Part shown: positions 13,317 through 45,235 of the stretch, piece by piece
Position numbering within the stretch: position 1 is the first letter of the stretch
Layout of the letters: each line of letters opens with the position of its first letter
Assembly (NCBI RefSeq): GCF_013410345.1
Contig: NZ_JACCFJ010000001.1
Coordinates: forward strand, 1,426,001 to 1,490,000
Source: Saccharopolyspora hordei
GTDB taxonomy: Bacteria; Actinomycetota; Actinomycetes; Mycobacteriales; Pseudonocardiaceae
Direction of reading: 5' to 3'
DNA: 64,000 bases
Position numbers and translations under genes: made by a program
Notes under the pieces: generated by a model
Told to the model about the DNA's origin: nothing
What the model saw: the letters and a program-made list of their open reading frames with translations, nothing else
Databases searched by the model: none

Positions 13317-13943
13317 TCAACTCTGCAACTCCGCTTCGACCACGTTCAGTTGCATCCGGCATCCCTCCGGGGCGTGCATCACGACCGAACCTTCGATCTC
13401 AGCGGTCTCGTGCACGGGCACGGTCCGGCTCTCGCCCGATCTCATGTCTTCTGCGCTGGAACGGCCGACTTCCAGGTCGACCTTCGTCATGGGGTCGGTG
13501 GCGCAGTCCTGGAAGTCGACGCTCTCGGGCGCGTCGACGATCTCGAAGGTGATCTCCAGGTTCGCGCGCGGCTCGTCGGTGGTGATGGTGAACGGGACTT
13601 CCTCCCCGTCGAGCAACCGGGGCTGGTTCTCGGGTGCTCCCGCGAAGACCACCTTCCCGGTCACGTCCACGCTGCCGAACTCGGTGTGGAGGAAGAAGCC
13701 GCCGGCGACCACCCCCACCAGCACCGCTGCGGTGACCAGTGCGCCGGTCATCATGGACCGGCTTCCGGTGGGGGTCCCGACCAGGGCGATGACGCTGACG
13801 GCGAGGCTCAGCACGCCGGCGATCTCCGCGCCTGCGTCGATGTGCAGCAGCCATGCGGTGAACCCGAACAGGCACAGGAAGGCCAGCAGCGCCCAGTAGA
13901 ACCGCGGCGGCAGAGGTGTCTTCGGCGTGGAGACTTTCGGCAC
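13317..13943 (-). CDS. Three-helix membrane protein with extracytoplasmic domain, unknown
   Basis: 208 residues from a GTG with GGGGG 9 nt upstream. Three membrane helices are visible near residues 14-34, 41-60 and 66-84 (FYWALLAFLCLFGFTAWLL, AGVLSLAVSVIALVG, ALVTAAVLVGVVAGGFF). They are followed by about 120 residues that read as a beta-sandwich-like exposed domain with two cysteines (DFQDCATDP, PEGCRMQ). It is co-transcribed with the solute-binding lipoprotein, the gap being 11 nt. No family is recognised. A larger reading frame upstream is an artefact of G+C-rich sequence. Confidence 0.7.
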   Translation of the reverse strand: MPKVSTPKTPLPPRFYWALLAFLCLFGFTAWLLHIDAGAEIAGVLSLAVSVIALVGTPTGSRSMMTGALVTAAVLVGVVAGGFFLHTEFGSVDVTGKVVFAGAPENQPRLLDGEEVPFTITTDEPRANLEITFEIVDAPESVDFQDCATDPMTKVDLEVGRSSAEDMRSGESRTVPVHETAEIEGSVVMHAPEGCRMQLNVVEAELQS

Positions 13944-14211
13944 GGTGTCGAACCCCCATGGTCGCTGTCGTGCGAGACCTGGTCGGCCGTCGTGTTTCGA
14001 AGAGAGACGCCCGGGGCTGGTCGCGGGTTGCGCGGATGCACGAGGAACGACCACGTGGGCCTGCGTGTTCCGTGCGGCGCGATGGTGCTCCGGGCGGAGG
14101 GCCCACAGGGGGAGAACGCCAGGAGACCACTCGTTCGGCCCAGTGCTCCGGAGACGCGAGAAGCCCGTGAGCACGCCGAGACCGGTGCTCACGGGCTCCG
14201 AGGACGGACCG

Positions 14212-15384
14212 CTACCTCCGGGGCCGGCGGGCCGACACCGGGCGGCGGCGGACGACGCGGCGGTCGCCGCGGTGCGGGGTGGTGACCCCGGCCGTCTGCT
14301 GGCGGTCCCACGGCAGCAGACGCTTGGAGCTGCTGCGGTCGGCCAGGCGCAGCGACTCCGCCGAGGTGAGCCACTCCTCCGCCGGCTCGGCGATCTCCAG
14401 CAGCAGCGCCTCGAACTCCGAGCGGGTGGTCTCCAGGATGTGCGGCGCGGCCAGCCAGCGCAGCACCTTCCGGCCGGTGACCGCCATCCGCTGGCGGGGC
14501 GAGGAGACGATCGGCTGGTTGAAGTAGCGGACCAGCACCTCGTCCATCACGTCCCACGCGTTGGCCGCGCCGAACAGGTCCTTCACGTCCTCGGCGTTGA
14601 GGATGCGGAAGCACTCGTCCAGCAGCTGCATGACCTCCACGCGCAGCACGTTCAGGTGGCCGTAGGAGGTGAACTTCAGGTTGTTGCGCAGGTCCAGGCC
14701 GCTGCGCCGGACCACCGCCATGCTGCCGAAGGACGGGTCGTGCGCGCGCTCCCGGATGACGTCGGAGACCCGCTTGTCCCGCCAGAACAGCGCGACCTGG
14801 TTGTTGAACTGGGTGAACAGCCGGTGGAAGTCGGTGTTCGGCCGCGAGTGGCCCGATCCCAGGCCGCGCCCGTAGCCGAGCACCCTCCGGTAGGCGTTGA
14901 GCCGGTCCCGCCTGGTGTAGCGCAGCACGTCCCGGCGGTCGAAGCGGTAGAGCCCGAACGCGCCCTCGCCGTCGAACAACCGGATGGCGCCGCGCTCGAA
15001 CAGCTCCCGGAGCTTCTGCACGACGCGGAACATGCCCATGCGTTCGTGCTGGTACAGGTAGTACACGTCGGCGACGGCGAGCAGGCGCTCGGACGCGATG
15101 GTCTCGTCGTAGTTCTCGATGCCGTGCGGCATGCGGGTCGCGCCCATGTCGCTGGCCGACTCGCCGCCGATGCCGACCAACTGCGCCAGGCCGCCGTCGG
15201 GTGGTCGTGGTCCGCTCTGGTCCTCGGCCTCGACGGCGAAGAGCATGTCGTCGATCTGCTTCAGCAGGGCCTCGCCGACCTGCGGGTTGCTGCCGAGCTC
15301 GTTCGACAGGTTGCCGGCGACCTGCCTGCGCAGCGCGGCGACCCGGTCGAACAGCTCCCGGTACTGCTTTTCGGTGGCCATCAT
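14212..15384 (-). CDS. Unknown operon protein D (basic C-terminal tail)
   Basis: 390 residues, the last gene of a five-gene operon. I recognise no domain. It is mostly helical and soluble. An N-terminal helix (YRELFDRVAALRRQVAGNL) is followed by a segment rich in aromatic and charged residues (VYYLYQHERMGMFRVVQKL, GLYRFDRRDVLRYTRRDRL). A second helical half (LNVLRVEVMQLLDECFRIL, DVMDEVLVRYF) leads to a very basic tail after residue 365 with many arginines. There is no signal peptide or membrane segment. It begins 27 nt after the preceding stop. The basic tail resembles those of two other proteins in this operon and may bind nucleic acid or the acidic protein A. Confidence 0.72.
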   Translation of the reverse strand: MMATEKQYRELFDRVAALRRQVAGNLSNELGSNPQVGEALLKQIDDMLFAVEAEDQSGPRPPDGGLAQLVGIGGESASDMGATRMPHGIENYDETIASERLLAVADVYYLYQHERMGMFRVVQKLRELFERGAIRLFDGEGAFGLYRFDRRDVLRYTRRDRLNAYRRVLGYGRGLGSGHSRPNTDFHRLFTQFNNQVALFWRDKRVSDVIRERAHDPSFGSMAVVRRSGLDLRNNLKFTSYGHLNVLRVEVMQLLDECFRILNAEDVKDLFGAANAWDVMDEVLVRYFNQPIVSSPRQRMAVTGRKVLRWLAAPHILETTRSEFEALLLEIAEPAEEWLTSAESLRLADRSSSKRLLPWDRQQTAGVTTPHRGDRRVVRRRPVSARRPRR

Positions 15385-15411
15385 TCCTCCGTGCGGGGCG
15401 CGGGCGGACCG

Positions 15412-16875
15412 CTATTCCGGCCGCGGTGCGGGCTTGGGCTCGGGACGCGGCTTGCGGGTCCGCTGCTTCGCCGTGGTCCTGGGCGACGCAGCGCCCTGCT
15501 CCGCCGGCGCGGGCGTCGGTGGTGTCGCGGGGGCCGACCCCGGGTCCGGTGGGGGCGCGGGGGCCGACCCCGGGGGTGGCGCGGGAGCCTGGCCGGAGCC
15601 CGGCGGTGGTGCGGGCGTCTGGTCCGGCGGCGGCGTGATCGCCGGCGGACCGGTCGGGTCGTCGAGCTTCGCGCCGTGCCGGATCGGGCGGGCGACGCGC
15701 ACGACCTCCTGCAGGTGGTCGTGCAGCTCGTCGATGGCCCGCTGCACGCGGGAGCTGAAGAACCCGGCAGGCAGCGTGGCCCGGTAGTTGCCGGGCGCGT
15801 CCTCGGTGCTGCCGTCGCCGCGCCGCGGCAGGTTCCCGACCAGCCGCTCCAACCGCACGGCCACCTGCAGGAACGCGCTGTCCACGCCGTCCTTGCCCGC
15901 CGATTCGATGAGCGTGCGGCCCTCGAAGCAGGCGAAGTCGTGCACCCAGCGCAGCAGACCGCCCAGCGACATCGAGCCGCCCTCGGGGTCGGGGATGCGC
16001 AGCACCTCGCGGTCGCCGCGGTGGACGCTCACCGAGCTCAGCGCCGCGACGAGCTCCTCGACCTGCACCGCGGTCGCCGACAGCAGCTGCGACAGCGCCA
16101 CCACGGCCGGCCCGAAGAACGGCGGCTGCCCGGTCTCCGGCTGCGCGAACGGGTCGATGCGGTCCCGCGAGTCCAGCCACCCCCGGTACAGCGAGAGCAC
16201 CCAGTCGACGAGCGTGATGAACGAGGTCTGGATCCGCTCTTCCTCGATGGTGTTGACCAGGCCGCCGACGAGCCCGAACTCGTCGCGCAGCTGCCCGAGG
16301 TGGCCGCGCACCCGGTCGGCGTCCACCGCCGACGACGGGGTGCCGAGCAGCAGCAGGAAGAGCTGGTCGACCCGCGGCACCCGCAGCAGGGCGCTCTCCA
16401 ACTCCTTGCGGATCTCCTCCAGGTCGTGGCGGACCAGGCGGCGGATGCCTTCCCCGTTCTCCGGGTCGGCGCCCGGCCGCAGCGGTCGCAGCGAGTCCAG
16501 GAGCTGGGTGGCGTCCTTGATGGCGCTGCGCGCGCGGGCGGCCAGCGAGGCCTGCCCACCGGTGACCGCACCGAGGTCGGCCTGCACCGCGTACCCGCGC
16601 GGCGTCCACGTCGCCTCGGTGTGCCCCTCGACGCGCGTGAGCTCGAAGCTGCCGGTCAGCGCCGCGGTGAAGCCCTTGGTGTCGCCGTCGCGCCACTTCC
16701 ACCCGAGCACGTCGCTGATGGCCTTGTTGGCCAGCTTGCCGGGGTGCGCCCACCACGGCGGGCACGGTGGGACGTGCCGGTGGACCAGGGGGTAGGCGCT
16801 GTCGATGTCCTGCGCCGGCGGGAGCGCGGCGCCCCTGTCCTCGCCCGTGCTGGGGCGGTCGTCGTTGATGGTCAT
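15412..16875 (-). CDS. Unknown operon protein C with proline-rich, basic tail
   Basis: 487 residues from an ATG that overlaps the upstream stop by 4 nt (ATGA). Residues 1-400 are a soluble, largely helical region of no recognised family. It begins with AYPLVHRHVPPCPPWWAHPGK and contains long helices (VDADRVRGHLGQLRDEFGLV, VALSQLLSATAVQVEELVAAL). After about residue 410 the sequence turns into a disordered tail of PAPPPGS-type repeats and ends in a lysine/arginine/proline segment (TAKQRTRKPRPEPKPAP). The tail repeats appear in the DNA as near-identical G/C-rich units around 15520-15620 and are prone to length change. This is an accessory-type gene. Confidence 0.72.
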   Translation of the reverse strand: MTINDDRPSTGEDRGAALPPAQDIDSAYPLVHRHVPPCPPWWAHPGKLANKAISDVLGWKWRDGDTKGFTAALTGSFELTRVEGHTEATWTPRGYAVQADLGAVTGGQASLAARARSAIKDATQLLDSLRPLRPGADPENGEGIRRLVRHDLEEIRKELESALLRVPRVDQLFLLLLGTPSSAVDADRVRGHLGQLRDEFGLVGGLVNTIEEERIQTSFITLVDWVLSLYRGWLDSRDRIDPFAQPETGQPPFFGPAVVALSQLLSATAVQVEELVAALSSVSVHRGDREVLRIPDPEGGSMSLGGLLRWVHDFACFEGRTLIESAGKDGVDSAFLQVAVRLERLVGNLPRRGDGSTEDAPGNYRATLPAGFFSSRVQRAIDELHDHLQEVVRVARPIRHGAKLDDPTGPPAITPPPDQTPAPPPGSGQAPAPPPGSAPAPPPDPGSAPATPPTPAPAEQGAASPRTTAKQRTRKPRPEPKPAPRPE

Positions 16876-17348
16876 CGCCTGCCCTCGCTGCCTTCCTCGA
16901 TGCCGAACCGCGTCGCGAGTTCAGCGGTCTCACGCCAACACCGCAGCATGGTGTTCTCCGTGCTGCGCAACGATTCCACGCATCCGTCCACACCGGACCG
17001 GACGCTGCGGGCCCACCCGAGCCACTCCGGTCCGCGCCCCTGCACTCCCCGCGCGAGCTCCCCGGCCGCGCGGAGACAGCGGAACTCGTCGTCGAGCCGC
17101 CGCTGGGTGCGCAGCAGCGCGAGCGCCGTGGTGTGCAGGGCGTCCGCGTCCGGGCGCCCGCGCACCGCGCGCAGCGCCCGTTGCAGGTCCGCGGCACCGT
17201 CGGTGGTCACCTCGGCCAGCCGGTCGGACACCGCCGGGCGGTCCCCGCTCGGCCGGTCCTGCACCACGGTCACCTCCAGCGCGCGCCACGCGGCCGCGAG
17301 CTGCCGGACCTTGCGGGCCAGCACCGGGAACTCGTCGCGCAAGGTCAC
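16872..17348 (-). CDS. Unknown operon protein (small helical)
   Basis: 158 residues, flanked by 4-nt ATGA overlaps with both neighbours (16872-16875 and 17345-17348), so it is translated together with them. It is helical and amphipathic: FPVLARKVRQLAAAWRALEVTV, then LRTQRRLDDEFRCLRAAGELA, then VESLRSTENTMLRCWRETAELATRF. There is no signal peptide, no membrane segment and no recognised motif. Its position between the metallopeptidase-like gene and protein C suggests a bridging subunit or chaperone. The strict overlap is the main evidence that it is a real gene. Confidence 0.7.
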   Translation of the reverse strand: MTLRDEFPVLARKVRQLAAAWRALEVTVVQDRPSGDRPAVSDRLAEVTTDGAADLQRALRAVRGRPDADALHTTALALLRTQRRLDDEFRCLRAAGELARGVQGRGPEWLGWARSVRSGVDGCVESLRSTENTMLRCWRETAELATRFGIEEGSEGRR

Positions 17349-18673
17349 CGCGCCCGCCTCCCCAGCTCCTCCACGAAGAAGCGCGCCAGGCGCTTCGGCG
17401 GTGCCATGCGCTGCTCCAGCGCGTGCCGCACCGCCCCGATGAGGAACCGCTCGGGAGCGACGCCGGGCGCGACACCGTCGGCGAGCCGTTCCGCGAGCTC
17501 CTCGACCATCCGCTGTTCCTTGTGCTCGAACCGCAGCACCTGGGCGAGCTTGCGGTCACCCAGCGAGGGGTAGGAGGTGAAGCACATCGCCTGCACCACG
17601 GCGGGCACCGCCTCGTCCGCCGTGGCCAGCAGCGCGGGCGGTGCCCCGATGAGCTTCGGTCGCGGGAACATCGCGTGCCAGGCCCGCTCGTGCTGCTCGG
17701 CCCGGCGGGTGAACCCCATCCGCCGCAGCAGTTCGATGGACAGCTTGCCCCGCACGTACGGCGCCGGGTGCGGGTCGGACGGCTTGAACTTCGCCGCCAG
17801 GCGGGGGTCCCGCGCGATGACGTCGAACAGCGAGCCCACCACCATCGGCCCGCCCAGCAGCAGCCCGGCCAGGTCGGCGAAGGTCTCGCGGTTCCACCGC
17901 ACCCACTGCGACACGATCGCGGGCGGCAGGCCGAGTTCGGTCAGCTGGGCCGCGACCTGCATCGGCACCGCCTTGGCCAGCCCCAGGTCGTTCTGCAGGT
18001 TGTGGCTGACCTCGTGCAGCACGGCGCCGAGGGTCCACGGGTTGACCAGCCGGTGGAACGGCAGCTGGATCAGCGGGAACGGGTTGATCCGGTTGCTCAG
18101 CCGCTGCAGCGGGATGCCGCGGCGGGAGGTCGCCGGCCCGTGGCTGGGTTCCAGGTAGCAGAACGGCGGTGGGGTCGGGATCGAGCGCCACCGCCCGATC
18201 CCGAGGTAGGCGTACTGGTAGCAGTCGAGCGCGATGCGGTCCGCGGCCACCAGCCACGGGGCGAACGCGCTCTGCCGCTGGTTGAACAGCTCCAGGTAGA
18301 AGTCCCACAACCGCTCGGTCTCGCGGACCAAGCGGTACGTCCGGGACTTCGCCCGCAGCACCTCCTGCATCCGCTGCGGGTCCGGTCGCCGGGCAGCGCG
18401 CTCGGTGATCCGGTGCAGCTCGCGGACGGCTCGGTGCAGCGGTTCCCGGAGCGTGGCCATGGTCTCGTTGACCGCGACCAGGTGCGCCCGGCTGGGCCCC
18501 GTGGCGGGATCGCCGAACTCCGACCAGCTGAACGGGCGGAGCGCGCTGAGGTGACGTTCGCTGCTGATGGCCTGGGTACGGGACCAGGTCGCCAGCAAGC
18601 GCGCAGTTCCGCGGTCCACCGGCCGGGTCCGGCGACCCCTCGCCGACCGCAGCTCAACGGCGGCGGCGGGCAC
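17345..18673 (-). CDS. Putative zinc metallopeptidase-like protein (HEVSH motif), unknown operon protein B
   Basis: 442 residues from a GTG with GGAGGAG upstream, overlapping the end of the preceding gene by 20 nt. A gluzincin-like site is visible. HEVSH at residues 220-224 follows a hydrophobic strand (LGAVL). An ETFADLAG segment at 263-270 lies 39 residues on and could supply the third zinc ligand (E263) and a buried aspartate (D267). The N-terminal 200 residues are helical and include AADRIALDCYQYAYLGIG; the C-terminal part is also helical. There is no signal peptide, so the activity would be cytoplasmic. I do not recognise the family. The zinc site is inferred and unproven. Confidence 0.72.
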   Translation of the reverse strand: MPAAAVELRSARGRRTRPVDRGTARLLATWSRTQAISSERHLSALRPFSWSEFGDPATGPSRAHLVAVNETMATLREPLHRAVRELHRITERAARRPDPQRMQEVLRAKSRTYRLVRETERLWDFYLELFNQRQSAFAPWLVAADRIALDCYQYAYLGIGRWRSIPTPPPFCYLEPSHGPATSRRGIPLQRLSNRINPFPLIQLPFHRLVNPWTLGAVLHEVSHNLQNDLGLAKAVPMQVAAQLTELGLPPAIVSQWVRWNRETFADLAGLLLGGPMVVGSLFDVIARDPRLAAKFKPSDPHPAPYVRGKLSIELLRRMGFTRRAEQHERAWHAMFPRPKLIGAPPALLATADEAVPAVVQAMCFTSYPSLGDRKLAQVLRFEHKEQRMVEELAERLADGVAPGVAPERFLIGAVRHALEQRMAPPKRLARFFVEELGRRAR

Positions 18674-19502
18674 GGCCTCTCCTCCGCTTGCCGGCCTTGG
18701 CCCGCCCCTTGGCGCCGCGTGACCTCCGCTTCTGCGCCGTCCGGCGGGCGGCGGGACGACGGTTCTTCGGAGCGGCACCGCGGCGCTTGGTCGGCCGACG
18801 GCGGCGCCCGCGCACGGCGCTGCTGCGGCTCAGGGCGTTGGCGGCGTGCCCGGCCAGCGATCGCGCCACGTGCCTGCCGGTGACGCGCTGCCCCCGCGCG
18901 TAGCGGCGGGCCATGTCCCGCGCCGTGCGGCCGGCGATCTTCGGGACCTGGCGGACGGCGCGGCGGGTCGTCTTGCTGCGCCACAGCTTCTTGCCGATGC
19001 TCTTGACGCCCCGGATGAGCTTGGGCGCCACCTTCTTGGCGATCTTCGGCGCGGCCTTCAGCGCGAGCGGCGCGAGCGCCCCGAGGATGCCCTCGACTTC
19101 GGCCTCGGACTCGGCGGCCTCGGCCTCGAAGGCGAGCTTGGCCATCATCTCCGCGTCGGGGTAGACGCGGTTGACCGGGTTGGAGAAGCCCTCGTACTCG
19201 TCCTCGAACTCCGCTTCCAGCTCGCGGACGAGCTGCTCGAACTCGTCCTCCAGCTCGTCTTCGTCCTCGTACTCGTCTTCGTCTTCGAACTCGTCCTCGA
19301 ACTCGTCTTCGTCCTCGAACTCGTCCTCCAGCTCTTGGAGGATGCCTTCGAGTTCGTCCTCGAGCTCGTCTTCGAACTCGTCCTCCAGTTCGTCTTCGAA
19401 CTCGTCCTCGTCCTCGAACTCGAACTCGTCTTCCAGTTCGTCCTCAAGCTCGCGGGCCAGCTCGTCTTCCAGCTCCCCGTCGACCGCTGGATAGCGACTC
19501 AT
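18654..19502 (-). CDS. Charge-polarised protein: Glu/Asp-repeat N-terminus, Lys/Arg C-terminus (unknown operon protein A)
   Basis: 282 residues, the first gene of the operon, from the ATG at 19502 with AGGAGG 8 nt upstream. Residues 9-105 are nearly all Glu, Asp, Phe and Leu in ELEDEFEDE-type repeats. Residues 108-117 read NPVNRVYPDA, then 120-145 an alanine/glutamate helix ending GALAPLA. From 148 the chain becomes strongly basic (KAAPKIAKKVAPKLIRGVK), with a final tail (231-282) of mostly Arg, Lys and Ala. From memory the NPxxRVYPDA plus GALxPLA arrangement recurs in bacterial proteins with acidic repeats, but no function is known to me. It could self-assemble or bind the basic tails of its neighbours. 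Confidence 0.78.
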   Translation of the reverse strand: MSRYPAVDGELEDELARELEDELEDEFEFEDEDEFEDELEDEFEDELEDELEGILQELEDEFEDEDEFEDEFEDEDEYEDEDELEDEFEQLVRELEAEFEDEYEGFSNPVNRVYPDAEMMAKLAFEAEAAESEAEVEGILGALAPLALKAAPKIAKKVAPKLIRGVKSIGKKLWRSKTTRRAVRQVPKIAGRTARDMARRYARGQRVTGRHVARSLAGHAANALSRSSAVRGRRRRPTKRRGAAPKNRRPAARRTAQKRRSRGAKGRAKAGKRRRGRARRRR

Positions 19503-19791
19503 GGTTCGGTCCTCCTGTCCTGCACCGCGCCGGCGGGGTGGTCGTCCGGTCGTCGGTGAGCGCGTGCGGTCAGTGCAGCGCAAGAGGACGTTCGGGTGGT
19601 AGTCACATCTTCGCGTAGCGCTCTGATGCATTAGACAAGATGCGTGTCACACGAATCGACGATGCGCAGATGAACGATGTCGGATTTGCTGTAGTCGATC
19701 GCGGCGACGCTGCTCCGGCCCGCTGTGGGGGCGCGGGCCACGGTGGAAGTGGCGCGAGTCCGCCTGACGGTTTTCTGGGGAGGCCGGTGGT
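19503..19791. promoter_or_regulatory. Divergent promoter region between the unknown operon and the LuxR-type gene
   Basis: 289 bases without a gene. 19600-19690 is clearly more A+T-rich than its surroundings (for example ATGCATTAGACAAGATG). It probably carries the promoters for both directions. I could not place -10/-35 boxes with confidence. Confidence 0.5.
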
Positions 19792-20229
19792 ATGGCGAAG
19801 GAAGCGGCTACGACTGCGGTCCCGCGCGTCGCCCGGGGGGAGCCCGAACCCACCTGGCAGGGGCCGGATCCGCACGCGGACGAGCTGGTGCAGCACCTCG
19901 TCCGGGCGTTGGTGCGGCGGGTCGGCGAGATCGCGGGCCCGCACCGCGGTGTGCGGAAGCCGCTGCTGGACGTCACCGAGCTCGGCGTGCGTTGCATGCT
20001 CGTGCCGGTCGCGCCGAAGGTCGACGAACTGCTCAGCCCGCGCGAGCGGGAGATCGCGCGGATGGTGGGCCTGGGCTACACCAACCGCGCCATCGCGGCG
20101 GTCCTGGAGATCAGCCTCTACACGGTGTCGGCCCACTTGCGGCGGATCTTCACCAAGCTCGGCGTGGGTTCGCGCGCCGCGATGGTGGCCGCGCTGTCCG
20201 ACAACCCCGACCTCTACTCGGAGGGTTGA
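19792..20229 (+). CDS. LuxR-family helix-turn-helix regulator, no receiver domain
   Basis: 145 residues. The C-terminal 60 residues are a standard LuxR/GerE DNA-binding domain (LSPREREIARMVGLGYTNRA, then SLYTVSAHLRRIFTKLGVGSR). The N-terminal 80 residues are not a response-regulator receiver: no phospho-acceptor aspartate pattern is seen. Instead there is a short helical segment (DELVQHLVRALVRRVGEIAG) and a hydrophobic strand. It is transcribed divergently from the five-gene operon at 14.2-19.5 kb, which makes it the natural candidate to control that operon. This link is inference from position. Confidence 0.85.
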   Translation: MAKEAATTAVPRVARGEPEPTWQGPDPHADELVQHLVRALVRRVGEIAGPHRGVRKPLLDVTELGVRCMLVPVAPKVDELLSPREREIARMVGLGYTNRAIAAVLEISLYTVSAHLRRIFTKLGVGSRAAMVAALSDNPDLYSEG

Positions 20230-22856: not shown

Positions 22857-23759
22857 TCACCGGCAGGGCGGGGTGTCGTCCACGCCGAGGCGCTCCAACA
22901 GCGCCTTCTCCTGCGGCGTGTACTCCCGGTCCGAGATCCGGCACAGGTCGTCGAACCACACCTGCGGGTCGTACGGGACCAGCTCCCGGTGGAGCGGACG
23001 GTCGTCGAGGACGAAGCCGTCCTCCTCGATCGACTGCGGCTGCCAGTTGTTGTGCAGGTCCAAGGACGTCACCTGGACGCGCTCGCGCCACTGCCAGACG
23101 TACAGCTCCGATTCCCCCCTGGCGAACAGGTAGTCGCCCATCATCCCGATGGGGTCCTGGTCGACCGCGGTGAGCGGTGGCAGTGGCTCCATCGTGGTCA
23201 AGTCGAAGAGGGAGATCGCGGTGTCGTCCATGTCGGCCACCGCGGCCACTCTGCCGTCCGGGGACACCACGGGCGGTTCCAGCGTGCGGATCTCGAAGCG
23301 GTGCACGCGCTTCCTGGCCCGGAGGTCCCAGACCTCGACTCCGTCGTGGTTCACCAGGACCTGGTCGTGGCCCGGTCGCAGGACGACCTCCGGGCCGAAG
23401 ACGACGTGCACCCCCGGATCGACCAGCGGTAGCGGCGGTGCTGTCTGCACGCCCGTCCACGGGTCCCACGACGACAGCAGCCCGCGGTGGCTGATGAGCA
23501 GGGTTCCGTCCGGCGCGGACGTCACGGACGCCTCTCCCACGGTGCGGCCCTCGTCAGCCTCCCATCCAGGAGCGGGCAACCGGGCCTCGTGCTCCAGCAC
23601 CAGTCCCGCGGTGCGGTAGATCCGCAGGTCGTAGCCGTCCACGACGATGACGTGCTCACCGGTCGCGTCGAAGGCCAGGGCGTGCGGGTAGTTCGGGCAG
23701 GGAACGTGCTGCAGGATCCTGCCCTGGGCGTCGATCAGCGCGATCTGCGCCCGTGGTCC
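22857..23759 (-). pseudogene. Detached C-terminal WD40-repeat part of the trypsin-nSTAND gene (out of frame)
   Basis: An open reading frame of about 300 codons that is clearly protein-coding (AQIALIDAQGRILQHVPCPN, LAFDATGEHVIVVDGYDLRI, SVTSAPDGTLLISHRG, VVSPDGRVAAVADMDD) but has no credible start of its own. The WD-like blades continue directly from the end of the upstream gene, whose frame hits a stop at 23735. The two frames overlap by 25 nt, so a single-base loss between 23735 and 23762 would explain the break. It ends with a conserved-looking acidic helix and two cysteines. I treat it as the lost C-terminus of the gene starting at 26728. Confidence 0.8.
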
Positions 23760-26728
23760 TCAGGCGTGCCGCTCGGACCGTGCACGTACGTGGCCCAGAG
23801 CTGACCACCCGGTGCCCGGGCGGTCGTCGTGCTGTTCACCTGCCTGCGCGGGCTCAGCGGAGGGCTGGTCGGGACCGTCCGCAGCTGCACCGCGTCGTTG
23901 CGCAGGAAGATGACGTCGAGCGGGCCACCGGCGTCCCGGACGAGCGTGTGCGGGTCACCGCTGATGGTGTCCACGGTGGGGACGGTGCTGTCGGTGCTGA
24001 GCCAGGTCCCGGTGCGCCACCGCATGACCGCAGACCCGAACAGCAGGTACTGCCCGCTCGCGTCGACCGAGAAGCTGCACTCCTCGTAGTTGCTGTACGG
24101 CTCGACCAGCACGGCGGGGTCGGTCGAGTACGGCCCGCTCACCTCCCCGGAGAACAGGTCGTGGATCGTGAGCGCACCACCGGCGCAGACGGCGGCCTTG
24201 GTCCCACCGTCCACCAGGCCGAACGAACTGATCACGGCTCCCGGAGACCTGCGCAGCTCGGCACCTGACGCGAGATCGCGCACCACGGCGACGTGCTCGG
24301 TGTACCCGTCCGGTGCCTCCACCTCCTCCGTCGTCACCAGTGAGCGGCCGTCCGGTCCCGGGTAGGACTCGTCGAACGTCGGGTCGGACCACGGGTGCTG
24401 GACGGGCGGGGCGGTCGGGTCGTCGAGGTCCCAGAGCACGATCGCGGCGTTCTCGCCGTCCATGGCCATGAGGAACCTGCCGTTGGCGCTGAACCGCAGC
24501 TCCCACGCGCCGATCCGTGGATCCGAGATGACGGGTTCCTCCGGGTGGTCGAGGTCCCACACTCGCACGCCGTGCTCGTCGTCCTCGGTCGCCAGCATCG
24601 TCCCGTCCTGCCGCAGGGCGACGAGGGTGTCGACGTTCGTCGGGATCTCCGCGTGCCGGGGCGCGGGCCCGAACAGGCCCCACCACACGGTCACGTCCCG
24701 GTCGGCGCTCCGCGGTTTCACGGCCACGACCTGGCCGTCGGAGCTGGCGACCATCTCGTCGACGTCCACCAGCGACGGGTGCGAAGCGAGTCGATCGACC
24801 CCGCTCCAGTACAGCCGCTGCTGGAACAACGCGCCCCACGCCTGTGCGCTGTCGGGGTCCTCGCGCCACGCGGCCAGCGCCAGCTGCAGGGCCTGTGACG
24901 GGTTGTTCTCGCCGGCCCGGTCGGCTTCCTGCACGAGCCGCCCGGCGTTGATCTGCCGGAGCCGGCCGTCCAGTTCCAGGTTGTTGGTGAGGACGACGCC
25001 GGTGAGCACTGCCGAGACCAGGGCGAGGACGCTGACGACGGCGGTGGTGGTGCGCCAGCGGCGTTGGGTGCGGCGGTGGGTTCGTTCGGCGGTGTGGATG
25101 TAGTCGCGGAGGGACTCGGGGACGTCGCTGTTGCGGCGGGCCACCCAGGTGGTGGCTTCGGCGAGCAGGGGGCCGGTGAGCTGGGCGCCGGAGTTCTTGA
25201 GGTCGTGGAGCTTGGCTTGCCAGGCGAGGAAGTCGGCGTCGTCGTCGAGCCAGCTGCGCAGGGTGGGCCAGTGGTCGATGAGTGCTTGGTGGGGGAGTTC
25301 GACACGGCCGTCGTGGACGACGACCAGGCGTTGCCCGGCGAACTCCGAGGCGAGTTCCCGCAGTTCGGGTTCCAGGTCCGCCCACAGCACGCTGCGTCGG
25401 ACGTGCCCGGTGTCGCCGTCGGGGCGGGTCAGGCTGGTGAGGAGTCTCCGGGCTCTGCGGAGCCCTTCGGTGCCCAGACCGTCGAGGACGTCGTCGGCGC
25501 GGTGGGCGAGCGCGCCGGTGACCCGGCCGAGCTCCTGGTAGGCCTCGTGGGTCAGCCAGACGCCGTGCCGGTTCTGCCAGAGCTGGTCGAGCACCGTCGA
25601 CAGCAGCGCCAGTTGACCGGGCGGGCAGTCGTGCACGATCGCCTCGGGCAACCCGGCCTCGAACGCCAGGCCGGCGCGCTCGGCCGGGACCTCGATCGCC
25701 TGCCGCAGCTGCTCCGGGCGCATCGGCTTGAGCAGCCACACCGCCTGCCCGAGCTGCTGCGCGGTGTCCGGGGTGACCAGCTCGTCCAGCGACCGCGACC
25801 GGAGCGTGAGCACCACTCGCAACGGGTGCTCCGCGATGTGCTGGACGATCCGTTCGAGCTTCGCGCGCGCGGCCGTGCGGTCGGCGACCACCTCTTCCTC
25901 GAACTGGTCGAGGAACAGCACCCCGCGGGTGGGCAGCGACTCGTCCTCGCCCGGCTCCACGACCTCGGTCCCGGCCTGCCGGAGACGGGGGATGAGACCC
26001 GCCCGCACCAGCGAGGACTTCCCACTGCCCGACGGCCCCGAGATGGCGACCATCCGCTGCCGTTCCAGCACCTCCAGCAGTTCGGCGACCTCGGCGTCAC
26101 GGCCGTGGAAGCGGTCCGCGTCGGACTCCCGGAACGTCTCCAGCCCGCGGTACGGGTTGTGGTCGGAGTCCACCCACTCGCGCAACACCGCGATCGGCAG
26201 CAGGTGCGCGGTCGCCTCGTTGCTGCCCGACCTGGTGACGACCATGCCGACGACGCCGCCCAGCTCCCTGTCCCACACGGGGGCGCCGCTGAACCCCTGC
26301 ACGATCTGCTCGTGGTGGGCGTCGACCGACATCTGCACCCGGTTCCCGCCCTGCGTCCCCGCGAGCACGCCGCTCACCCACACACCCTCCGGGTGCGCGG
26401 GCGTGCACCCGAGCACCCGGAACCGGTGGTCGAGGAGCGACCGTTCGAGCCGCACCGGGGCCGGGCGGGTGCCGGCGGGCGGGTCGAGCAGGCGCAGCAC
26501 CGCGATGTCCTGGTCGGTGTCGAGCGAGTCGACCTCCACCGCACTGGAGCTGCCGTCCACCAGCGGGAACTCCGCGGTGACGCCGTCGAACCCCTCCACG
26601 ACGTGCGCGCACGTGGCCACGCGATCACCGGGCAGCACGAAACCCGTGCCCAGCAGCGACCCGCCCGCGACCAAGCGCACCAGCGAGGCCGCCAGCGGCT
26701 CGGCCGCGGTGAGGTCGGACGCCGTCAC
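23735..26728 (-). CDS. Trypsin-like protease - nSTAND NTPase - WD40 protein, frameshifted near its end
   Basis: 997 residues in this frame, and about 1,290 if the frameshift is repaired. Residues 10-190 are a trypsin-like domain with an intact triad: H42 in TCAHVV, D74 in DQDIAVL, S147 in GFSGAPVWD. Then NPYRGLETF and the nSTAND NTPase: Walker A GPSGSGKS at 231-238, Walker B LFLDQFEE at 271-278. A membrane-spanning helix lies near 561-582 (TTAVVSVLALVSAVLTGVVL), then WD-type beta blades. The GTG start has GGGAGG 6 nt upstream and lies 2 nt after the previous stop. Such proteins are predicted sensors/effectors of biological-conflict systems that cleave targets on activation. Confidence 0.88.
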   Translation of the reverse strand: MTASDLTAAEPLAASLVRLVAGGSLLGTGFVLPGDRVATCAHVVEGFDGVTAEFPLVDGSSSAVEVDSLDTDQDIAVLRLLDPPAGTRPAPVRLERSLLDHRFRVLGCTPAHPEGVWVSGVLAGTQGGNRVQMSVDAHHEQIVQGFSGAPVWDRELGGVVGMVVTRSGSNEATAHLLPIAVLREWVDSDHNPYRGLETFRESDADRFHGRDAEVAELLEVLERQRMVAISGPSGSGKSSLVRAGLIPRLRQAGTEVVEPGEDESLPTRGVLFLDQFEEEVVADRTAARAKLERIVQHIAEHPLRVVLTLRSRSLDELVTPDTAQQLGQAVWLLKPMRPEQLRQAIEVPAERAGLAFEAGLPEAIVHDCPPGQLALLSTVLDQLWQNRHGVWLTHEAYQELGRVTGALAHRADDVLDGLGTEGLRRARRLLTSLTRPDGDTGHVRRSVLWADLEPELRELASEFAGQRLVVVHDGRVELPHQALIDHWPTLRSWLDDDADFLAWQAKLHDLKNSGAQLTGPLLAEATTWVARRNSDVPESLRDYIHTAERTHRRTQRRWRTTTAVVSVLALVSAVLTGVVLTNNLELDGRLRQINAGRLVQEADRAGENNPSQALQLALAAWREDPDSAQAWGALFQQRLYWSGVDRLASHPSLVDVDEMVASSDGQVVAVKPRSADRDVTVWWGLFGPAPRHAEIPTNVDTLVALRQDGTMLATEDDEHGVRVWDLDHPEEPVISDPRIGAWELRFSANGRFLMAMDGENAAIVLWDLDDPTAPPVQHPWSDPTFDESYPGPDGRSLVTTEEVEAPDGYTEHVAVVRDLASGAELRRSPGAVISSFGLVDGGTKAAVCAGGALTIHDLFSGEVSGPYSTDPAVLVEPYSNYEECSFSVDASGQYLLFGSAVMRWRTGTWLSTDSTVPTVDTISGDPHTLVRDAGGPLDVIFLRNDAVQLRTVPTSPPLSPRRQVNSTTTARAPGGQLWATYVHGPSGTPEDHGRRSR

Positions 26729-26729
26729 G

Positions 26730-27251
26730 TCACCCCTCCCGCCTGGCACGGACGCTCGGTGCTCGCACCGGCCGCCTGCCCACCACCCCGGCCAGCGCCT
26801 CGTCCCACACCGGGGCGCCGCTGAAGCCGGGGTCGACGTGCCAGAGGCCGGGGTCGACCGCCATCGGGACGAGACCGGCACCCTGCGCGCCGAGCAGCCG
26901 ACCGGTCACCCGGACACCGTCGGGCACGTCGTGCGGGAAGCCGACGGTGCGGAAGCGGTGGTCGGCGACGTCACCCGAGATGCGCGCGGGAGCGGGCAGC
27001 GCCCCCGGTGGCGGCTCGGCCAGGCGCAGCAGGGCGACGTCCAGCGCCTCGTCCTGCTCCAGCACCTCGACGGCGTGCCCGCGGGTGCCCAGCAGCGGGG
27101 AGTCCGCGACCAGGTCCGCGGCGCCGTCGACGACGTGGGCGCAGGGGGCGACCACGTCCGGGGCGACCCGGAACCCCGCCCCCAGGACGCGCTCGCCAGC
27201 GCGCACCCGGACGAGGGCGGGGCCGAGCGGACCGACCGCCGGACCGGTCAT
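26730..27251 (-). CDS. Short trypsin-like protease domain protein, C-terminally truncated
   Basis: 173 residues; the ATG at 27251 forms TGATG with the stop of the Trypco1 gene. The protease domain resembles that of the next gene: H in APCAHVVDG, D in ALDVALLRL and S in DPGFSGAPVWD. But after AGVVG the chain ends in RRPVRAPSVRARREG instead of the last two strands seen in the neighbour (GVVGMVVTRSGS and on). The fold may therefore be incomplete or completed in trans. It is encoded between Trypco1 and the large STAND gene with 1-2 nt spacing on either side. Confidence 0.8.
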   Translation of the reverse strand: MTGPAVGPLGPALVRVRAGERVLGAGFRVAPDVVAPCAHVVDGAADLVADSPLLGTRGHAVEVLEQDEALDVALLRLAEPPPGALPAPARISGDVADHRFRTVGFPHDVPDGVRVTGRLLGAQGAGLVPMAVDPGLWHVDPGFSGAPVWDEALAGVVGRRPVRAPSVRARREG

Positions 27252-27568
27252 CAGGACTTGTCGACGCCGGTCCACTCGATGGTGACGTTGAAGTTCGCCT
27301 CGCCCGCGGACTTGGCCACCGCCAGGCTCGCCTCACCGGTCACCTTGATGCCGAACTGCACGTTCACCTTCGCCGGCGGCTGCTCCATCGCGCGCAGCTC
27401 GCCGAGCACCGCTTCGGCGGCGGACCGGATGTTGCCCATCGCCTTCTGCACGGTCTCCGACGCCTGCACCACGCGGCTGCCGCTGCCGACCGGGATCGAC
27501 CCCGCGCCGTCAGCGGACTCGACGACCAGCTCGCCGCCGTCCTCCAGTGGCATCCGCACCAACGTCAT
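27251..27568 (-). CDS. Trypsin-co-occurring domain 1 protein (Trypco1 / CU044_2847 family)
   Basis: 105 residues from the ATG at 27568 with GGGGG 7 nt upstream. It shows the compact Trypco1 pattern: LVRMPLEDGGELVVESA, a helix (ETVQKAMGNIRSAAEAVLGEL), then the beta strands KVNVQFGIKVTGEASLAVAK and NFNVTIEW. This family was named because it sits next to trypsin-like proteases in predicted NTP-dependent conflict systems (Kaur, Burroughs, Iyer and Aravind). Here it is the first gene of such a cassette, followed by two protease-containing genes in the same operon. It is thought to act as an adaptor or substrate of the protease. Confidence 0.85.
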   Translation of the reverse strand: MTLVRMPLEDGGELVVESADGAGSIPVGSGSRVVQASETVQKAMGNIRSAAEAVLGELRAMEQPPAKVNVQFGIKVTGEASLAVAKSAGEANFNVTIEWTGVDKS

Positions 27569-39824: not shown

Positions 39825-42200
39825 TTGCTCGCGTTCGTCGTCGTGCACCTGCTGGTCGCCCTGGCACTCCCGTTCCTCGCCCGGCGCAGCACTCGAGCCG
39901 CGTTCTTCACCGCGGCGGTCCCCCCGGCCGCAGCGCTGCTCTGGGTGCTCGCGCACGCGGGACCGGTGCTGTCCGGGCAGACCGTCAGCGAGACGGTCGA
40001 GTGGGCGCCGCTGATAGGGCTGGAGTTGGCCTTCCGGTTGGACGCGCTGGCGCTGCTGATGACCATCCTGGTCTCGGGCCTGGGCGCCGTGGTGCTGGTC
40101 TACTCCGACGCCTACTTCTCCCGCGGCGGCGGTGACGCGCGGCGGTCCGCCCCGCTGCTGCTGGCGTTCGCCGGCGCGATGCTCGGGCTCGTCCTCGCCG
40201 ATGACCTGATCACCGTCTACGTCTTCTGGGAGCTGACCACGGTCTGCTCCTTCCTGCTGGTCGGGCAGGCCGGGGTCAGCCGCGAGTCACGCCGGTCGGC
40301 GCTGCAGGCGCTGATGATCACCAGCATGGGCGGGCTGGTGATGCTGCTCGGCTTCGTGGTGCTGGGCGAGTCCGCGGGCACCTACCGGATCTCCGAGCTC
40401 ATCGAGCACCCGCCGACCGGCGGGACGACCGGGCTCGCCGCCGTGCTGATCCTGGTCGGGGCGTTCACCAAGTCCGCGCAGGTGCCGTTCCACAACTGGC
40501 TGCCCGCGGCCATGGTCGCGCCGACCCCGATCAGCGCCTACCTGCACGCCGCGTCGATGGTGAAAGCGGGCGTGTTCCTGGTCGCCCGGCTCGCCCCGGT
40601 GTTCCCGAACCTGCCCGAGTGGTGGCTGCCCACCATCGTGTTCGGCCTGGTCACCATGCTGGTCGGCGGCTGGCGCGCGCTGCACGAGCACGACCTGAAG
40701 AAGCTGCTGGCCTACGGCACCGTCAGCCAGCTCGGCTTCCTCATGGTGCTGTTCGGCGCCGGCACCCACACCGGCGCGATGGCCGGGGCCGCGATGCTGC
40801 TCGCGCACGGCATGTTCAAGGCGACCCTGTTCCTGGTCGTCGGCATCGTCGACCACCAGGCCGGCACCCGCGACATCCGCGAGCTGTCCGGACTGGGCCG
40901 CTCGATGCCGTGGCTGGCGGGCGTCGCCGTGCTCGGCGTGGCCTCGATGGCCGGGCTGCCGCCGATGCTGGGCTTCATCGGCAAGGAGGCCGCGTTCAGC
41001 GCCTTCCTCACCGGTGCGCGGCCGGACCTGCTGGTGGACGCGGTGCTGGTGCTCGGCTCGATGCTCACCGTCGCCTACAGCCTGCGGATGCTGTGGGGCG
41101 CGTTCGCGGACAAGCCCGAGCTGCCGCAGACCACGGTCAAGCCCGCCACCGCGGGCGCGCTGGTCCCGACCGCGCTGCCCGCCCTGGCGGGCGTCGTGCT
41201 CGGCGTCGGCTACCCGGTGGCCGACGTGCTGGCCAGCTCCTACGCCGAGTTCTTCACCCCGGTGGTGCCGTACCACCTGGCGCTGTGGCACGGCTTCACC
41301 CTGCCGCTGCTGCTGTCCGCGGTCGCCGTCGCCGGCGGTGTCGCGCTGCACCTCGGCCGGGTCCGGCTGACCGCGGCGCGCGACCGGCTGCCGCGACCGC
41401 TCGACGCCCAGCGCGGCTACGAGCTGATCATGGCGCAGCTGGAGCGGGTGGCGGTCGGCGTCACCGGTCGCCTGCAGGTCGGTTCGCTGCCCACCTACCT
41501 GGGCATCATCCTGCTGACGCTGCTGGTCGTCCCGGGCTCGGCGCTGCTGCTGCGGCTGACGGTGCCGGACGACCTGCGCGGTTACGACAACCTCCTGCAG
41601 GTCCCGCTGGCCATCGTGGTGGTCGTCGCGGCGGCCGCGGTGCTGCGCGCGCGCCGCCGGTTGACCGCCGTGCTGCTGGTCGGCCTGGTCGGCTACGGCA
41701 TCGGTGGGCTGTTCATCGTCGACGGCGCCCCCGACCTGGCGCTGGCGCAGTTCCTGGTGGAGACGCTGACGCTGGTGGCGTTCGTGTTCGTGCTGCGGCG
41801 GCTGCCGGCGCGCTTCACCCAGTCCGGCACCGCGAAGGTGTGGCAGGCGCCCAAGGCGGTCATCGCCGGGGCCGCCGGGATCCTGGTCGCGGTGGCCGCG
41901 GTGATCTTCAGCGGCGCGCGCCAGAACCCGCCGGAGTCGAGCGCGGCCTTCATCGCCAACGCCGAGCAGGGCGCGGGCGCGACCAACGTGGTCAACGCGA
42001 TCATCGTCGACTTCCGCGCCTTCGACACCGTCGGCGAGATCTCGGTGCTCGCCATCGCCGCCACCGGGATGGCCAGCCTGATCCTGGCCTCCCGCCACGA
42101 GCGCCGGAAGCGCAGCACCCGGGTGCCGTCCATCACCGTCAAGACGACGACCGGCCTCGTCGAGCAACCGGTCAAGCAGCACGAGGAGGTGCGCGAATGA
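39825..42200 (+). CDS. mrpA: Mrp antiporter subunit A
   Basis: About 791 residues. I prefer the TTG at 39825 because GAGGAGG ends 5 nt upstream; a GTG at 39819 lies inside that site. It is a large membrane protein with many helices. It includes the proton-pumping antiporter core (VFWELTTVCSFLLVG, HNWLPAAM, SAYLHAASMVKAGVFLVARL in pieces, KKLLAYGTVSQLGFL) and a C-terminal MrpB-like extension. Mrp is a hetero-oligomeric Na+(Li+,K+)/H+ antiporter evolutionarily related to complex I. It starts a seven-gene operon. Confidence 0.92.
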   Translation: MLAFVVVHLLVALALPFLARRSTRAAFFTAAVPPAAALLWVLAHAGPVLSGQTVSETVEWAPLIGLELAFRLDALALLMTILVSGLGAVVLVYSDAYFSRGGGDARRSAPLLLAFAGAMLGLVLADDLITVYVFWELTTVCSFLLVGQAGVSRESRRSALQALMITSMGGLVMLLGFVVLGESAGTYRISELIEHPPTGGTTGLAAVLILVGAFTKSAQVPFHNWLPAAMVAPTPISAYLHAASMVKAGVFLVARLAPVFPNLPEWWLPTIVFGLVTMLVGGWRALHEHDLKKLLAYGTVSQLGFLMVLFGAGTHTGAMAGAAMLLAHGMFKATLFLVVGIVDHQAGTRDIRELSGLGRSMPWLAGVAVLGVASMAGLPPMLGFIGKEAAFSAFLTGARPDLLVDAVLVLGSMLTVAYSLRMLWGAFADKPELPQTTVKPATAGALVPTALPALAGVVLGVGYPVADVLASSYAEFFTPVVPYHLALWHGFTLPLLLSAVAVAGGVALHLGRVRLTAARDRLPRPLDAQRGYELIMAQLERVAVGVTGRLQVGSLPTYLGIILLTLLVVPGSALLLRLTVPDDLRGYDNLLQVPLAIVVVVAAAAVLRARRRLTAVLLVGLVGYGIGGLFIVDGAPDLALAQFLVETLTLVAFVFVLRRLPARFTQSGTAKVWQAPKAVIAGAAGILVAVAAVIFSGARQNPPESSAAFIANAEQGAGATNVVNAIIVDFRAFDTVGEISVLAIAATGMASLILASRHERRKRSTRVPSITVKTTTGLVEQPVKQHEEVRE

Positions 42201-42739
42201 CGACGACACCGACGCGTCCGTCCTGGACGACGTGGGACGCACCGACCGAACGGTGGTTGCTGTCAGGCTTCTGCCGCGACGGCAAGCAGCGCACCGTGCT
42301 GCTGGAACTGGCGGCCCGCGTCGTCTTCCCGACCGTCCTCGTGCTGTCCATCTACCTGCTGTTCGCCGGGCACGACCGGGCCGGCGGCGGGTTCAGCGGC
42401 GGGCTGGTCGCCGGGCAGGCGTTCGTGCTGCGCTACCTCGCCGGTGGCCGGATGGACGACAGCTCGATCGTCTCGCTGCGGCCGCCGGTGCTCATCGGCC
42501 TGGGGCTGGTCATCGCCACCACCTCGGCGTTCCTGCCGCTGCTGTTCGGCGGGGAGCTGCTGGAGACGGCGATCCACAAGGTCACCGTGCCGCTGCTCGG
42601 CCAGGTCAAGCTCGTCAGCAGCATCGTGCTGGACACCGGCGTCTACGTGCTGATCGTGGGCGTGGTCCTGGACCTGCTGCGCACCTTGGGCTCGGGCATC
42701 GAAGCCGACGTCCAGGCGGCGGAGCGGGGGCAGGCATGA
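42197..42739 (+). CDS. mrpB: Mrp antiporter subunit B
   Basis: 180 residues starting at ATG that overlaps the mrpA stop (ATGA). It has the MnhB signature region RVVFPTVLVLSIYLLFAGHD and GGGFSGGLVAGQAFVLRYLAGG, with four to five membrane helices. It forms part of the small-subunit membrane arm of the antiporter. The N-terminal 40 residues (PTRPSWTTWDAPTERWLLSG) are a soluble extension. Confidence 0.92.
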   Translation: MTTTPTRPSWTTWDAPTERWLLSGFCRDGKQRTVLLELAARVVFPTVLVLSIYLLFAGHDRAGGGFSGGLVAGQAFVLRYLAGGRMDDSSIVSLRPPVLIGLGLVIATTSAFLPLLFGGELLETAIHKVTVPLLGQVKLVSSIVLDTGVYVLIVGVVLDLLRTLGSGIEADVQAAERGQA

Positions 42740-43155
42740 CGATCAACCTGACCATGGCCCTGGTGCTCGCGGTGCTGTACTCGGTCGGCTTCTACCTGCT
42801 GATGCAGCGTTCCCTGGTGCGCATCCTGCTGGGCATCGTGGTCCTCGGGCACGGCTCGAACCTGCTGCTGCAGACCGCCGGGGGGCCGCCGGCCGGGGCC
42901 GCGATGATCGGCATCACCGACCCGGCGCACATGGCCGACCCGCTGCCGCAGGCGATGGCGCTCACCGCCATCGTGATCACCTTCGCCCTGACCACCTTCC
43001 TGCTGGCGCTGGCGTACCGCTCGTGGTCGCTGCTCGGCCACGACGAGGTCCGCGACGACCTGGAGGACCGGCGCATCCGCCGGCTGGAGCGCCGGCTGGC
43101 CGAGTCCGAGGAGGACACCGCCGAGGAGGAGCTGGAGAAGGAGGCCACCCAGTGA
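42736..43155 (+). CDS. mrpC: Mrp antiporter subunit C
   Basis: 139 residues, ATGA overlap with mrpB. It is NuoK/MnhC-like: three helices with YSVGFYLLMQRSLVRILLGI, LGHGSNLLL, then ADPLPQAMALTAIVITFA containing the conserved acidic D/PLPQALVLTAIVI-type motif. A long charged C-terminal tail (LERRLAESEEDTAEEELEKE) is cytoplasmic. It helps form the proton channel. Confidence 0.93.
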   Translation: MTINLTMALVLAVLYSVGFYLLMQRSLVRILLGIVVLGHGSNLLLQTAGGPPAGAAMIGITDPAHMADPLPQAMALTAIVITFALTTFLLALAYRSWSLLGHDEVRDDLEDRRIRRLERRLAESEEDTAEEELEKEATQ

Positions 43156-44684: not shown

Positions 44685-45235
44685 CCGAGCGGATCGCCCG
44701 TCGCGGCCGGCTGCTGCGGCGGTTGCCGATGGTGGTCTGGCTGACCCTGGTCTGGGTGATGCTGTGGGGCACCTTCGACCTGGGCACGCTGTTCTTCGGC
44801 CTGGTCGTGGCGGTGCTGGTGACGGCGCTGTTCCCGAACCCCGCCATCCGCACCGGCATCGTGGTGCGCCCGCTGGGTCTGCTGCGGCTGGTCGGGTACC
44901 TGGCCTACGACCTGGTGGTCTCCACGGTCCGGGTGTCCTGGCAGGCGGTGACCCGCGGGCCGGGCACGCCCGCCGGGATCGTGGCGGTGACCCTGCGGAC
45001 GGACTCCGACCACATCACCGCGATCCTGGCCAACGGGATCTCGTTGGCGCCGGGCAAGTTCGTGCTGCAGATCGACCGGTCCAACCGGATCGTGTACACC
45101 TACGTGCTCGGCATGAGCCCCGAGGACGCCGAGGCCATGCGGGAGGACGTGCTCGCCCTGGAGCGCCGGGTGGTGCGCGCGGTCGGCTCGGACACCGAGC
45201 TGGCCCTGGTCGACGGACGGGAGGGACGAGCATGA
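44681..45235 (+). CDS. mrpE: Mrp antiporter subunit E
   Basis: 184 residues, ATGA overlap. It has two N-terminal membrane helices (MVVWLTLVWVMLWG, LFFGLVVAVLVTALF), then the MnhE soluble domain: LLRLVGYLAYDLVVSTVRVSW, ITAILANGISLAPGKFVLQIDR and IVYTYVLGMS. MrpE is needed for assembly and activity of the complex. Spacing and order match other seven-gene mrp operons. Confidence 0.93.
   Translation: MTERIARRGRLLRRLPMVVWLTLVWVMLWGTFDLGTLFFGLVVAVLVTALFPNPAIRTGIVVRPLGLLRLVGYLAYDLVVSTVRVSWQAVTRGPGTPAGIVAVTLRTDSDHITAILANGISLAPGKFVLQIDRSNRIVYTYVLGMSPEDAEAMREDVLALERRVVRAVGSDTELALVDGREGRA

Follow-up and report, generated by a model that had tools for sequence, protein, structure and literature searches.

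The zinc peptidases of family M48 (HtpX/Ste24 type), whose hallmark is an HExxH motif followed in order by ExxxD and HPx4R, are the described enzymes nearest in motif to the central protein of the locus analyzed here. Three kinds of described system come near the locus as a whole: the VMAP- and FtsH-ternary conflict systems, where a zincin-like peptidase is reported beside a rapidly diverging, sometimes acidic substrate (PMC7159879), the CHAT/STAND clusters of caspase-like genes, and the extracellular contractile injection systems (PMC8213781). The locus lies in a 64,000-nucleotide stretch (the window) of the complete 5.78-Mb chromosome of Saccharopolyspora hordei (family Pseudonocardiaceae), and consists of five close-packed minus-strand genes, from 18654–19502 down to 14212–15384, that encode the proteins P5, P4, P3, P2 and P1, with a gene for a LuxR-type protein (P6) diverging from them. 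The five genes form a conserved operon, and its metallopeptidase-like P4 is homologous to the peptidase of a second, sigma-54-type module found in many other bacteria, hereafter the sister module.

The initial annotation had described the five genes from the sequence of the window, and its coordinates and spacings were all confirmed on the minus strand. The gene for P5 ends at 18654 and that for P4 starts at 18673, giving a 20-nt overlap, the P4/P3 and P3/P2 overlaps are both 4 nt, and the gap between P2 and P1 is 27 nt, or 30 nt if P1 begins at the second ATG (15381). This second ATG is the more likely start, rather than 15384, because it is the conserved start among relatives. Long open reading frames (ORFs) on the opposite strand (e.g., 13927–17442) are of the antisense kind that is common in high-GC DNA. 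The features of the locus are:

18654–19502, minus strand: P5, 282 aa, charge-polarised, with an acidic N-terminal half, an Ala/Lys-rich middle and an Arg/Lys tail; relative of the ACID family
19041–19166, minus strand: P5 residues 113–154, the segment that aligns with distant acidic proteins in hhalign, pattern ...AESEAEVEGILGAL...
17345–18673, minus strand: P4, metallopeptidase-like, 442 aa; aligned by hhalign to the distant PEP family
18002–18016, minus strand: HEVSH zinc/catalytic motif of P4, residues 220–224; H220, E221 and H224 in 120/120 homologues
17873–17887, minus strand: ETFAD of P4, residues 263–267, with the probable third ligand E263 and D267, both in 120/120
17750–17770, minus strand: HPAPYVR of P4, residues 302–308 (HP-x4-R); H302 in 119/120, P303 and R308 in 120/120
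16872–17348, minus strand: P3, small protein, 158 aa; not found in 3/27 intact loci
15412–16875, minus strand: P2, 487 aa; tail proline-rich, basic at its end
14212–15384, minus strand: P1, about 389 aa, the most conserved of the five; start probably 15381
19792–20229, plus strand: P6, LuxR-type helix-turn-helix (HTH) protein, no receiver domain, divergent, 145 aa; GerE E 1.4e-15; in 27/27 intact loci
19503–19791, no strand: divergent promoter region with conserved GTCACAC boxes; box TGTCACACGAATCGACGATGCGC at 19645–19667

Searches of 390 genomes of the Pseudonocardiaceae gave a P1 match in 30. Across 27 intact loci, that of S. hordei included, tblastn recovered LuxR, P5, P4, P2 and P1 in one order in all 27 and P3 in 24, with P3 missing from L017–L019; these co-occurrence counts are conditional on P1 or P4 as the query. 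Three other loci were decayed relics, two with only pieces of P1 (L161, where P1 was split over two frames, and L162) and one with short pieces of P1, P2 and LuxR (L163). P4 was found in 12/150 genomes of the family; eight of these (own included; 57–100% identity) represented this operon, and the other four were distant relatives (25–33% identity) in different surroundings. A gene for an M20 peptidase and a second acidic protein also occurred in 4/27 loci (L017–L019 and L160). Identity of P1 across genera was 71–79%, and when the window was compared with its two closest relatives, dN/dS was 0.15–0.32 for each of the five genes. The five genes are one genuine conserved unit and not a chance arrangement, because their order was kept in every intact locus and because of these dN/dS values. 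The earlier proposal that they act together was thus strongly supported: the genes do co-occur in other genomes, and they did not resolve into five proteins with separate well-known functions. No credible match to P1–P5 was obtained in Pfam, NCBIfam or PHROG, in agreement with the statement that none belongs to a recognised family, and none in the PDB for the P1, P2 and P4 profiles, the three searched there. The P1 profile also hit type III antifreeze protein over 40 residues (E 0.0016), which was judged to be chance. Phylum-wide, the P4 profile had no match outside the own genome among 396 genomes (at most four candidates scored per genome), and a P1 search gave three marginal partial hits besides the own genome, which were dropped as chance.

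Copies of the operon were also found far outside the family. On a plasmid of Paraburkholderia sp. PGU19, P5, P4, P3, P2 and P1 lie in the order of the window and are followed after P1 by an M20 peptidase gene, an amidohydrolase gene and, at the end, a convergent LuxR-type gene. Its P1 shared 66% identity with the P1 of the window (364 aa) and 72% with the L017 version, its P2 was 38% identical to the window P2 over 369 aa, with extra N- and C-terminal stretches, and its P3 and P5 were 33% (124 aa) and 39% (152 aa) identical to the closest members of their families. A partial version in Corallococcus carmarthensis comprises one or more acidic proteins, P4 (41% identical to the closest window-type P4), a 664-aa protein, P1 (34% over 278 aa to the closest member of the P1 family; 32% over window residues 66–373), a DUF4438 protein and a convergent LuxR-type gene. 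The LuxR-type gene of Paraburkholderia and Corallococcus is thus at the opposite (3′) end and convergent, unlike the divergent P6 of the window. The 664-aa protein between P4 and P1 was considered as a P2, a homology that hhalign did not support. Three further myxobacterial loci had the same order, one of them (L182) without an acidic-protein call, possibly a fault of the gene caller, and a P1 relative of the Corallococcus type was present in 13/76 genomes of the family of Corallococcus. No P1 turned up in 61 genomes from the genus that includes Variovorax sp. J22R133, and among 16 genomes that hold sister loci only one gave a match, Corallococcus; C. carmarthensis also carries a sister module (L059). 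Because copies exist in Paraburkholderia and Corallococcus besides the family of the window, the operon has moved between phyla of distant bacteria. The DUF4438 gene (L168:6250–7230; homologues in L182–L184) is the last gene of the myxobacterial operon version, and no mention of DUF4438 was found in a text search of open-licence papers.

The zinc-like HEVSH site of P4, recognised in the initial annotation, proved to be the first of three motifs in the order HExxH, ExxxD and HPx4R. Within 120 aligned peptidases, H220, E221, H224, E263, D267, G275, P303 and R308 were invariant and H302 was present in 119, so that the motifs were kept throughout bar one histidine. An M48 protein of the same genome has the same motif order (HELSH, EYQAD, HPPMADR), although the motif spacings are shorter in P4. 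No P4 match to the M48 family PF01435 was found at a Pfam E ≤ 1, while two other places of the genome did match, and the P4 profile compared with the genome's own M48 protein (one sequence) gave probabilities of 0.2–0.9%, with best alignments of 9–20 columns. P4 probably works like a zinc peptidase with the M48 order of motifs, and its membership of M48 was not supported by profiles. A distant relationship was found elsewhere: the P4 family of the window aligned with the distant PEP family over 351 columns (hhalign probability 99.2%, E 6.5e-20). In a tree of 67 peptidases, which holds several long branches and whose deep joins are unsure, a single branch set off each of three groups: 28 rows of the window type, among them Paraburkholderia, four myxobacterial rows and 31 rows of the sigma-54 type. 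The branch between the sigma-54 and window types was supported, and three long CHAT-linked rows fell outside the three groups. Viral contigs and phage records yielded no relative with distant P4 queries.

After distant relatives of P4 had been found on plasmids of rhizobia and Paraburkholderia, named genomes were scanned, and 282 stretches encoded a P4 relative; 80 of them (L029–L108), found with a query of the P4 family, were kept and examined. We take these sister loci to belong to eight phyla (Pseudomonadota, Nitrospira, Chloroflexi, Chloracidobacterium, Methylomirabilis, Planctomycetia, Verrucomicrobia and Myxococcota), several of them represented only by metagenome bins. The family of the window itself also holds a sigma-54-type module (L023). 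The order of the sister module is acidic proteins, P4 relative, a protein of about 700 aa, an aminotransferase-like protein, cargo, in some loci an M20 peptidase, an amidohydrolase and a convergent sigma-54 activator. Genes of the fetched loci were called with a simple caller of our own and many contigs were cut, so that the following counts are lower bounds and some called genes are spurious: among the 80 loci, the peptidase was called in 80, the ∼700-aa protein in 77, acidic proteins in 69, the aminotransferase-like protein in 68, the sigma-54 activator in 51, the amidohydrolase in 44 and M20 in 11. Not every locus or phylum has all parts; a Verrucomicrobia locus, for example, had no acidic call. 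In 59 of the 80 loci the acidic gene immediately preceded the peptidase gene, and the sigma-54 activator gene was downstream and on the opposite strand in 50 of 51. Pfam confirmed Aminotran_1_2, Amidohydro_2 and Sigma54_activat in one example each.

The sister module and the window operon are alike in their homologous P4 and related P5, in the position of the acidic gene immediately before that of the peptidase and in having a dedicated regulator; the Paraburkholderia copy of the operon is also followed by genes for an M20 peptidase and an amidohydrolase. They differ in that the regulator of the sister module is a sigma-54 activator, convergent at the 3′ end, whereas the window has the divergent LuxR-type P6, and in that P1–P3 of the window replace the ∼700-aa and aminotransferase-like proteins. 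Sequence comparison places the window operon as a branch of a large, apparently undescribed bacterial system; text searches limited to open-licence papers found no published description of either the operon or the sister module. Five proteins without a credible family match are kept across genera and also on a betaproteobacterial plasmid, and P4 ties their operon to many loci in at least eight named phyla. By eye, a pattern common to P1 and the ∼700-aa protein was seen; the alignment probability was 0.2% and homology is not claimed.

Variable cargo genes occupied 102 slots in 55 sister loci, between the aminotransferase-like gene and the amidohydrolase. Eleven of the 12 cargo proteins searched against Pfam matched something and one matched nothing; the matches were PG_binding_1 (alone or with Amidase_2, DUF2272 or OmpA), VanY, Peptidase_C1 and Trypsin_2, with GIY-YIG and HNH just below cut-offs. 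Counts made with our own regular expressions are approximate: an acidic-type domain was present in 24/102 slots, four of which also had a peptidoglycan-binding signature, and this signature occurred in 25 of the other 78 cargo proteins against 0/393 neighbouring proteins. An xFExxPF-like motif lay within the first 35 residues of 37/78 non-acidic cargo proteins and of 33/393 neighbours. The cargo of the sister module is effector-like, and the genes of the module look like those of a weapon or a lysis kit for which no delivery machine is recognised.

The charge polarity first noticed in P5 was borne out, with a net charge of −67 in residues 1–137 and of +52 in the remainder, as were the basic tails of two other products, P1 (net +12 from residue 346) and P2 (proline-rich tail, net +6 in the last 24 residues). 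For the acidic part of P5, dN/dS was 0.10 and 0.20 in the comparisons with the two relatives closest to the window, and its low-complexity frame is therefore a real protein. Six P5 sequences aligned with 100 distant acidic proteins at 89% probability (hhalign), and the second acidic paralogue aligned with the same proteins at 92% over 57 columns. The distant proteins have a GxxxGxxxG glycine zipper in 86/100 and end in G-x-W-x-R in 86/100 (regular expression). After its acidic half, P5 has cationic amphipathic stretches with a maximum hydrophobic moment of 0.83. A Kyte–Doolittle (KD) scan of P1–P4 of the window and six P5 sequences found no prominent N-terminal or membrane helix, bar one moderately hydrophobic stretch of P4 (1.85).

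The divergent gene was correctly read as LuxR-type without a receiver: the sole domain of P6 is a GerE/LuxR-type HTH, and other Pfam matches share the same stretch below cut-offs. Between P6 and P5, GTCACAC was kept in the promoter region of 25/27 loci and a longer form of the box, TGTCACAC.AATCGACGATG.GC, in 13/27. The 23-bp box pattern of the window, with up to two mismatches, occurred once in the 5.78-Mb genome, and the reversed control gave 0.

Tentatively, and at somewhat less than even confidence, we favor a module in which P4 acts on or controls P5, P1–P3 assist, P6 switches the operon and a fragment of P5 acts on the envelope. P5 would be synthesised as a pro-protein whose acidic half neutralises and masks its cationic amphipathic half, with P1, P2 and P3 as dedicated partners that may assemble, hold or protect it. 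P4, an intact and probably cytosolic zinc metallopeptidase, might then cut between or within the halves of P5 and unmask the cationic part, and P6 would switch the operon through the conserved GTCACAC boxes. Maturation of P5 by P4 would best account for an intact peptidase beside a protein that neutralises itself, within a superfamily that is accompanied by wall hydrolases and nucleases. By analogy, the freed part of P5 would probably act at or across a bacterial envelope, in antagonism or programmed lysis, because relatives of P4 and P5 in the sister module travel with peptidoglycan hydrolases, nucleases and proteases. A glycine zipper, the feature present in 86/100 of the distant acidic proteins, is reported to be needed for a type VI secretion system (T6SS) effector to be translocated into target cells (PMC10240207). 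If P5 is indeed the substrate of P4, many hypothetical proteins of environmental bacteria would become interpretable and testable.

Several observations weigh against this reading. The alignment of P5 with the acidic family spans only 41 columns, and the window P5 has no glycine zipper of the kind found in the distant proteins, although the second acidic paralogue of L017 and L018 has one. There is no classical transmembrane helix in P5, and 0/100 proteins of the acidic family reach a KD value of 1.6. No cleavage site was identified in P5 and no transporter or secretion gene is present among the five. P1, P2 and P3 aligned only at noise level (hhalign) with the ∼700-aa, aminotransferase-like, amidohydrolase and other proteins of the sister module, and no ORF around 28 window-type loci had the peptidoglycan-binding signature, the one kind of cargo searched for there.

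A bolder extension, which we regard as unlikely, is that acidic/glycine-zipper proteins matured by P4-type peptidases make up a new system, independent of contraction, that would carry wall hydrolases, nucleases and proteases with an N-terminal tag into bacterial envelopes or across them. Such a system would span at least eight named phyla besides that of the window, and the window operon would be a LuxR-controlled branch lacking this cargo, with P5 itself as the effector. With extracellular contractile injection systems (PMC8213781), the sister module has in common its environmental occurrence and its association with effector-like enzymes. No phage-sheath gene (PF04984) was found in the genome of the window (0 matches; in the control, 3 of 14 genomes matched), which sets the locus apart from these systems and lends no support to the injection accessory, in its classical form, that the initial annotation had entertained. 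An antagonistic role may still apply, since the wider superfamily carries effector-like hydrolases and nucleases.

Much the same features of P5 could be explained by a non-toxic structural or storage assembly, in which P5, a polyampholyte, would condense or associate with itself, acidic half to basic tail, to form a body in the cytosol or at the surface that P4 and P1–P3 trim and build. The strong opposite charges on one P5 chain, its lack of a clear membrane helix and a P1 as conserved between genera as an assembly scaffold would be are in keeping with such a body. The wall hydrolases, nucleases and proteases of the sister modules would not be needed for storage, however, and the locus is patchy in the family and decayed in three members, and we consider this reading unlikely.

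Somewhat less probable is an intracellular conflict or defence system, in which P4 would be a protease effector freed on infection and P5 its regulated target. The family has four distant relatives of P4, two of which (L020, L021) adjoin CHAT-like or STAND-type genes, and a Bradyrhizobium relative (L028) adjoins CHAT and phospholipase genes, a likeness to the CHAT/STAND clusters of caspase-like genes; the patchy distribution and plasmid copies would also fit. The five genes of the window include no such gene and no sensor NTPase, however, and the CHAT-linked P4 relatives are separate long branches of the P4 tree, outside the window group. Defence, also raised in the initial annotation, gained no PADLOC support for P1–P5 either: the only hit, of P5 to LeoBC (E 0.072), fell in its acidic stretch of low complexity, and the hits of P6 were to its HTH only. 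A Trypco1/trypsin/nSTAND1 conflict cluster 3.5–7.3 kb past P6 counts in favor of this reading, as do the parts of it found close to the operon in L013 and L148; these, both of the same genus, were however the only two of 26 relatives' fetched stretches to have it.

It is still less probable that the operon serves peptide processing or signalling, with P4 freeing a conserved peptide from P5 or the ACID proteins that would be sensed by P6 or by neighbours. The G-x-W-x-R ending of the distant acidic proteins would suit such a peptide, the M20 genes of four family loci and the M20 and amidohydrolase genes of Paraburkholderia would also fit, and a metallopeptidase with a small diverging precursor is an arrangement already described (PMC7159879). 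The likeness to those VMAP- and FtsH-ternary systems is an analogy only: P5 is far larger than their small precursor and has no FxSxx or RxD peptide at its C-terminus, and the five genes include no AP-ATPase or vWA/MoxR gene. Moreover, the window P5 ends in its Arg/Lys tail without G-x-W-x-R, no transporter is encoded among the five, and the putative precursors, unlike short peptides, are for the most part 200–300 aa long and contain a conserved domain. Finally, a niche metabolic operon, in which the five proteins would be an enzyme complex scaffolded by the acidic/basic protein, would account for the M20 peptidase, Amidohydro_2, class I/II aminotransferase and DUF4438 genes that accompany versions of the module, but is very improbable as P1–P3 match no enzyme family and the cargo of the sister module is largely degradative.

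Some neighbouring genes deserve mention. At L023:12411–14977 (G093), a sigma-54 factor gene (Sigma54_CBD and Sigma54_DBD) is beside a sigma-54 activator gene and linked to a sister module; sigma-54 is unusual in actinobacteria. The plasmid of Bradyrhizobium quebecense that holds the P4 relative of L028 has patatin-like, phospholipase D-like and S8 peptidase genes near it as well. The conflict cluster of the window is on the minus strand at 23735–27568 and consists of genes for Trypco1 (27251–27568), a Trypsin_2 protein (26730–27251) and a protein with Trypsin_2 and nSTAND1 (23735–26728), a cluster of the published trypsin-co-occurring kind. Further along, on the plus strand at 39825–45842, are seven tightly linked genes that resemble an operon for an Mrp-type cation/proton antiporter.

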